From: Apricaphanius iberus
Taxonomy: Eukaryota > Chordata > Actinopteri > Cyprinodontiformes > Aphaniidae
Assembly: GCA_028564705.1 (NCBI GenBank)
Contig: JAPXFQ010001955.1
Span: forward strand, 62,001-126,000
Direction: 5' to 3'
Length of the DNA stretch: 64,000 nucleotides
Below the pieces are notes generated by a model. That model worked only from the letters and a program-made list of their open reading frames with translations, did not search any database and had not been told where the DNA came from. Each line of letters begins with the position of its first letter. Position 1 is the first letter of the stretch. This document shows positions 34,465 through 35,705 of this stretch, piece after piece. The position numbers and the translations under genes were made by a program.

Positions 34465-35705
34465 TATTCAATTCAATTCAATTCAGTTTATTTATATAGC
34501 GCCATTTCACAACAGATGTCATCTCAAGGCACTTTACAAAAAGAGTTATTACAATACAATGTTAAGTGTAGAAATTACAGAACCACAGAAGATTGCGTCG
34601 TGGAATTCTCAGCAATCCCTCATACTGAGCAAGCATGCAGCGACAGTGGGAAGGAAAAACTCCCTTTTAACAGGAAGAAACCTCCGGCAGAACCAGGCTC
34701 AGCACAAGCGGTTATCTGCCGCGACCGTCTGTGGCTTGGAGAATACATAACAGAGACACAGAAAGAGCAATAGAACTGATGCAGAAGTTTGTTGCAGGAC
34801 GTGGAGAATTTTCCGTCACTGCAATGCCATCTTAGTCAGGGTCGTCAAGCAGGGCTAATCCGGAGCACCTACTATAATAGAAAACAGGTTAGTGCTTGAA
34901 TTGACAGCACATCATGCAGTTGGGGAGAAGTAGGAGAGAAAGTAGGAACAGACCCTAATAATGTCCTCCAACAGCCTAGCCTAAAGCAGCATAGCTACTA
35001 ACATTAACCTGTCTCCTAGCTACTAGGAGACCTGGCTACCAACACTCTGTCTGAGTCCTCCTGACCCGTGGACGGTGTAGGGCCGGTAACGGCCCCCGTC
35101 ATGCCGGGGTCTTCTCGGAGTCGGGTTGTTTGAGAATGCAGCCCAAAGTGGGTGGTAAACTCCATCTAAGGCTAAATACCGGCACGAGACCGATAGTCGA
35201 CAACTATCTTAAGGAAAAATAGACAGAACTGAGAGGACAGAGTTGAAGAGGGCGAGAAACGTTTAAGAGATAAACGGGTGGGGTCCGCACAGTCTGCCCG
35301 GGGGATTCAACCCGGCAGGTAATGGGCGGCCGCACTGTGCGGGAGGATCCCCTTGAGGGACCTCTCTCCGGCGCTGGCTGGCCCCTGTGGGGCACATTTC
35401 TTCCGCGGCGGTAAGCCGCGACCGGCTCCGGATCTTTACCTGGCTTACATTAATCTATCTCTACCTAGCTACTCTACCTCTTCCTATCTCTTCCTAACTT
35501 TTGACACTCTGCCTGACTACTAACATTAACCTGTCTCTTCCTATCTACCTGTCTGACCTGACTCTAACTACCTATAAACATATCTCTAACTGTAAGCTTT
35601 GTCAAAGAGGAAAGTTTTTAGCCTAGTTTTAAAGATAGACAAATTGTCTGCTTCACGAACCAACCCTGGGAGCCGGTTCCATAGGAGGGGAGCCTGATAG
35701 CTGAA
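34465..35705 (-). mobile_element. L2 LINE 3' end with embedded 28S rRNA, copy 1
   Basis: The 3' end is at the left with an ATTCA tandem tail (34468-34485). The UTR follows, then the 28S segment (35053-35431), then the ORF C-terminal codons (about 35600-35705). It matches 49606-50846 nearly base for base over 1.2 kb, except for a replaced block near 34600-34625. The 5' truncation falls in 'gcctgatagctgaaa', after which an ACT microsatellite starts. No protein remains. Confidence 0.9.
35053..35431 (+). pseudogene. 28S rRNA fragment (D1/D2 region) inside L2 3' UTR, copy 1
   Basis: The plus strand reads as 28S rRNA in sense. Landmarks in correct rRNA order are 'cccgtggacggtgtaggg', 'ggtcttctcggagtcggg', 'aatgcagcccaaag', 'gtggtaaactccatctaagg', 'aataccggcacgagaccgat', 'aaacgggtggggtccgc', 'ggattcaacccggc' and 'gtgcgggaggatcccctt', ending at 'gcgaccggctccgg'. 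These are conserved large-subunit sequences roughly 150-600 nt from the 28S 5' end, known from memory of vertebrate 28S. A few substitutions and small deletions are present. It is not a functional rRNA gene. In the LINE's own RNA it would be antisense. Confidence 0.92.

Follow-up and report, generated by a model that had tools for sequence, protein, structure and literature searches.

The L2-type element and its neighbours in the window

The window analysed here is a 64-kb stretch of a contig of the fish Apricaphanius iberus, and it carries two closely related copies, A and B, of a LINE that we take to belong to the L2 clade on known features of such elements rather than on a reverse transcriptase tree. 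Copy A occupies positions 34466..35706 of the minus strand; its limits are the points at which similarity to copy B stops on both sides, and its strand is given by ORF2. It is 5'-truncated within ORF2 and comprises, in order, the 3' end of ORF2 (35586..35706, minus strand, located by alignment to the ORF2 of copy B), a 3' UTR containing a block of 28S rRNA and, according to folding, a 3' tail formed by a stem-loop and terminal TTGAAT repeats (34466..34560, minus strand). Copy B (49612..52926, minus strand) has the same structure and is 5'-truncated elsewhere, at position 52926, where its similarity to a longer copy of the element called C100 (L006) stops. Its ORF2 includes a reverse transcriptase region (51297..52926, minus strand; Pfam RVT_1) whose open frame continues to 53000, past the element end, and a C-terminal piece beyond a frame break (50725..51198, minus strand). 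A third, related L2 copy without the block, copy C, was located by alignment at 9400..10440 on the minus strand and provides a comparison for the insertion region.

In one alignment of copies A and B, 1232 bases contain 8 substitutions, all outside the block; in another the count is 13 of 1234, the figure varying with gap placement. The eight substitutions all fall in the tail-side part of the element (34564-34936); positions 34937 to 35706 (770 bases) have none and contain one 1-nt gap. Outside the element, the flanks of the two copies do not align to each other.

Several features support the assignment to L2-type LINEs. The 3' tail consists of a stem-loop followed by short tandem repeats. 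In copy A it folds at -15.7 kcal/mol (z -2.11, with 6 of 200 shuffles equally good), and the tails of copies A, B, D, E and F share 16 pairs, none with changes on both sides and three broken in one sequence each. ORF2 encodes an endonuclease and a reverse transcriptase (Exo_endo_phos and RVT_1 in C100, RVT_1 in copy B). The 5' truncations of A, B and a further copy, L034, lie at different points, and a target-site duplication was seen in L034; one was sought for copy A and none was found. Among the best 120 of 7,788 protein matches to the copy B reverse transcriptase, those bearing names are mostly teleost, with a few bacterial names, and the highest identities (74-76%, covering some two thirds of the query) belong to Nothobranchius furzeri. 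A search of viral and prokaryote sequence collections yielded no carrier of the block; two contigs from prokaryote bins, L001 and L002, encode distant reverse transcriptase relatives (39-42%).

Three other features of the window may be mentioned. A Gypsy-type LTR element with a chromodomain, a 1148-aa pol frame and LTRs that are 98.4% identical extends from 12757 to 17739. A 542-aa open frame with an RVT_1 domain at 43215-44843 on the minus strand probably belongs to another non-LTR element, and at 59931-60681 a sequence of 750 bases matches its own reverse complement at 76% and forms a palindromic or fold-back element.

The 28S rRNA block

The block of copy A spans positions 35051..35434 of the plus strand and corresponds to the stretch of 28S rRNA that begins in the 3' part of D1 and extends through D2. 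It was compared with the Rfam consensus, with a human-type 28S and with 28S fragments of the same genome, and our conclusions are based on the last of these. In the alignment with host fragment L044, which contains 37 gap columns, 326 of the 360 ungapped positions are identical. In a scan of the whole window, the Rfam model LSU_rRNA_eukarya (RF02543) matched the copy A block with 92.5 bits (E 1.5e-20) and did not report copy B; when the copies were scanned singly, it scored 99.2 bits for A and 101.5 bits for B. Among 200 letter-shuffled blocks, the best score was 42 against the Rfam consensus, compared with 201 for the real block, and 55 against the human-type 28S, compared with 384. The block of copy B (50191..50573, plus strand) differs from that of copy A by one 1-nt gap and no substitution, and the block has no further match in the window.

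The preliminary description, made from the letters of the window, had recognized 28S rRNA at 35053..35431, which is correct to within 3 bases by host 28S alignment, and the three rRNA motifs it quoted are all present in the block, in rRNA order; the alignment to 28S, whose failure would have spoken against this reading, was obtained. It had further placed the block between the ORF end of an L2 LINE and its 3' tail, as is borne out by ORF2 on one side and the tail on the other, and had left the orientation unstated: the LINE lies on the minus strand and the 28S-sense block on the plus strand, so that the block is antisense in the LINE RNA.

At its left edge the block carries the host-type letters CTGAGTCCTCCTGA and at its right edge GGCTCCGGATC; the donor was therefore the host lineage or a near relative. 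The 28S fragments of this genome, each a candidate for the functional host 28S, differ from each other. A D1 stretch of about 28 nt is found in L045 and in the block and is missing from the 28S fragments L044, L047, L048, L049 and L050. In L049 (C1949) and L050 (C356), the same AT-rich non-rRNA sequence is fused upstream of D1, perhaps constituting another repeated 28S junction.

Dispersal of the composite element

The abundance of the block was estimated in the host assembly (1,195,412,853 bases in 1,979 contigs) with a 36-mer selected to tell it from ordinary 28S. Allowing at most 3 mismatches, this 36-mer occurs at 1,312 + 1,257 = 2,569 places, and its reversed control at none. A 65-base stretch of unmodified 28S occurs, with the same tolerance, at 8 places, L046, an L2 copy, being one of them. 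The places of the 36-mer are far more numerous, but because assemblies usually collapse rDNA arrays, 2,569 against 8 does not measure the real proportion of copies.

The 100 places listed out of the 2,569 are distributed over both strands and over more than 40 contigs, all low-numbered, and each matches the 36-mer exactly. Every fifth was cut out, giving a sample of 20 that leans to young copies and, being selected by the block, is silent on the fraction of L2 copies without it. All 20 have the L2 tail side next to the block, and 19 have the ORF2 side, in the same order. The exception, L034, is an element truncated within the block; the motif AGATTAA abuts both its ends, forming a 6-7 bp target-site duplication, and on one side occurs again 10 bases farther away. 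In L035 part of the block is missing. The block copy of L025 shows many scattered short insertions and few substitutions, and may reflect an assembly or sequencing artefact. Comparison of 19 three-prime flanks (16 of the 20 together with A, B and C100; L031, L037, L038 and L039, in which the tail anchor was not found, were left out) revealed no cross-match, and the insertion sites are therefore separate.

The assertion that the block has been copied on with the LINE is thus supported: its 36-mer is dispersed over thousands of places and every place cut out has an L2 context, as opposed to two loci related by segmental duplication without the LINE. A recent insertion into one copy alone is ruled out by the same count. 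Young copies of the block sit in L2; the converse, that L2 copies have the block, does not follow from a sample chosen by the block. On this second point, the suggestion that most young copies of the L2 subfamily might carry the block finds support in one copy out of one in a tiny unselected sample (20 x 10 kb). C100, the single block copy of that sample, is a longer element containing a GDSL-like ORF1 and an ORF2 with endonuclease and reverse transcriptase, with a frame break in ORF2. It is the only copy there exceeding 95% tail identity; the other tail matches are below 90% and none has the block.

Block versions and history

The block exists in two versions distinguished by the 11 nt TCGAGGCTCAG, which are kept in 5 of the 20 copies cut out (with one change in L027) and absent from the other 15 as well as from A, B and C100. 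The same 11 nt are present in host fragments L045 and L048, and L044 differs there by one base.

An older L2 copy, L046, is 87.8% identical to copy A on the tail side and 94.8% on the ORF side. Between its core and host fragment L048, there are no changes in 86 positions and one in the following 73, that is 1 in 159 positions. In copy A, the corresponding comparison gives 1 change in 86 positions (35118-35203) and 16 in 73 (35204..35276, plus strand), a tight cluster next to an almost unaltered stretch (Fisher p 2.8e-5). An L2 element with a nearly unchanged rRNA core thus existed, as L046 demonstrates, and the amplified line carries a tight cluster of changes. In the D2 part, L046 and copy A are about equally diverged from L048 (16 and 18 of 158 positions, respectively), a similarity that may point to another donor variant. 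Taken together, the two block versions and the older copy with its nearly unchanged core show that the block has been carried for a long time.

Probable mode of capture, carriage and amplification

The reading that we consider very probably correct is that one fragment of host 28S was inserted into the 3' UTR of an L2 element, was carried passively and was multiplied by retrotransposition. A source copy of the L2-type LINE would have gained, inside its 3' UTR, an antisense 28S fragment of the host or of a near relative. The composite would have remained mobile because the 3' terminal stem-loop, the feature recognized by L2 reverse transcriptase, is intact downstream of the block and because cargo is tolerated in the UTR between ORF2 and the tail; LINE RNA containing antisense 28S would then have been reverse transcribed many times at nicked targets, with the usual 5' truncations. 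The copies establish what the block is, where and in which orientation it lies, its dispersal to distinct sites, a truncation within it and a carrier with ORF1 and ORF2; a single capture by insertion, its passive carriage and, in this LINE family, recognition of the tail alone are inferred. The tail stem-loop is required in zebrafish L2s (PMC4176376), and with the tail intact here, passive carriage appears the likeliest reason for the success of the composite.

The edges of the block bear on its mode of entry. An imperfect 23-nt repeat (17/23) flanks it at 35030..35052 and 35438..35460, and further out an exact 21-nt direct repeat was found by sequence comparison at 34995..35015 and 35517..35537. 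The edge repeat is reached at k=23 in 1 of 300 shuffles and in none of 112 background windows, a length picked after the fact in a LINE UTR rich in similar motifs; at k=12, 16 and 20 it is matched by 29, 95 and 10 of 300 shuffles. It is compatible with a decayed target-site duplication, a possible trace of an rRNA copy inserted into the L2 UTR.

Capture could also have occurred by a template switch from L2 RNA to 28S rRNA during first-strand synthesis. There is precedent in the 18 28S/LINE-1 chimeras known from separate loci of the human lineage, 83% of which are in the sense orientation with the cargo at the 5' end and which are ascribed to RNA ligation or template switching (PMC13174262). 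A simple switch of this kind would place 28S in the sense orientation at the 5' end, not an antisense block enclosed by L2 sequence on both sides as is seen here. The simple first-strand switch, which would give the wrong orientation, is disfavoured, and we regard this route as unlikely; the observed arrangement agrees better with an insertion, twin priming or a second-strand event. Of the two routes put forward in the preliminary description, insertion of an rRNA copy is accordingly favoured over template switching.

Another proposal makes the block useful: antisense pairing with host 28S rRNA or pre-rRNA would serve the LINE and be kept by selection, by way of nucleolar targeting, ribosome association or the confusing of small-RNA silencing. 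The near identity of 35118-35203 to host 28S in copy A, the even closer core of L046, and the existence of two block versions, together with the presence of the block in the older L046 lineage, could be taken as signs of such maintenance. However, the amplified lineage bears 16 changes in the adjacent 73 nt, 15 of the 20 copies cut out have the 11-nt deletion, parts of the block are missing from L034 and L035, and the young copies are alike by descent and were chosen by the block, so that their sharing it is no evidence of selection. Selection for a function seems to us quite improbable. Slighter still is the chance that the block works for the LINE by pairing with host 28S or pre-rRNA, which would bring the LINE RNA to the nucleolus or to ribosomes or attract small RNAs that match rRNA, and that the cluster of 16 changes is an adaptive retuning in the amplified lineage.

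The mobile unit might alternatively be a 28S-derived SINE inserted into L2 copies rather than an L2 with cargo. PMC13174262 cites a reference for the existence of such SINEs, and imperfect repeats do flank the block. The junctions are nevertheless those of an L2: the tail junction is present in 20 of 20 copies cut out, the ORF2 side in 19, and in no case is the block free-standing. For the tested copies these junctions rule out an origin as a free 28S SINE, and we hold this reading to be very unlikely overall. Finally, the proximity of A and B in one window could suggest that a single locus was duplicated, segmentally or in tandem, or that the assembly is at fault. This is extremely unlikely: similarity stops at the LINE 3' end and at differing 5' truncations, the 100 listed places are spread over many contigs and both strands, and the 19 flanks without cross-match rule duplication out for the tested copies.

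The composite element has some wider consequences. At the sequence level, it is evidence that host 28S can be acquired by a general LINE and multiplied throughout the genome. Composite elements of this type may account for unexpected 28S FISH signals in fish, and they could mislead ribosomal-gene mapping, D1/D2 PCR, rRNA depletion, the filtering of reads and the annotation of small RNAs. L046 and the two block versions also form a series in which the decay of cargo inside a LINE can be followed.

Comparison with known systems

SINEs derived from rRNA, of the 5S and 28S types, are known. They are short non-autonomous elements with an rRNA head; in the present element the rRNA lies inside a LINE, between ORF2 and the tail in 19 of 20 copies, and is found as well in a copy with ORF1 and ORF2. 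The likeness to the rRNA-derived SINEs named in PMC13174262 is that rRNA sequence is spread by LINE machinery. With the zebrafish elements ZfL2-1 and ZfL2-2, which are of the stringent type, the element shares a 3' stem-loop and terminal short repeats; the portion of that report at hand makes no mention of rRNA cargo (PMC4176376).

A cytogenetic parallel exists in Coregonus fontanae, in which supernumerary 28S signals co-localize with Rex1 (PMC3585787). There too the 5' part of 28S has spread in a fish genome and is ascribed to retrotransposons, but the evidence is cytogenetic and indirect in the words of its authors, and the excerpted text mentions no sequenced carrier element (PMC3585787).

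The 28S/LINE-1 chimeras resemble the present case in that they, too, combine a LINE with a piece of 28S, 50-482 nt long with a median of 269 nt (PMC13174262). Each such RNA/LINE chimera stems from a single event and is confined to one locus; the block described here is antisense, lies within the 3' UTR and, as judged by the 36-mer, has been copied to 2,569 places.

A further parallel comes from R2. The view expressed beforehand, that an rRNA block as a stable part of a LINE UTR had not been described, has to be narrowed in the light of these single chimeras (PMC13174262) and of a ray-finned-fish R2 lineage that has 28S rRNA-derived sequence in its 3' UTR (PMC5035012). It stands for the L2 case, inasmuch as our literature search found no L2 with an amplified 28S block; the repeat libraries Repbase and Dfam lay outside that search and may already hold such an entry. 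The R2 lineage and the element described here are both fish LINEs in which a 28S-derived piece of the 3' UTR is a family trait. R2 targets the 28S genes, and the authors link its piece to a shifted insertion boundary (PMC5035012). Unlike R2, the carrier here is of the dispersed L2 type, with 19 mutually unrelated flanks in place of insertion into 28S genes, and its piece is antisense and derives from D1/D2.
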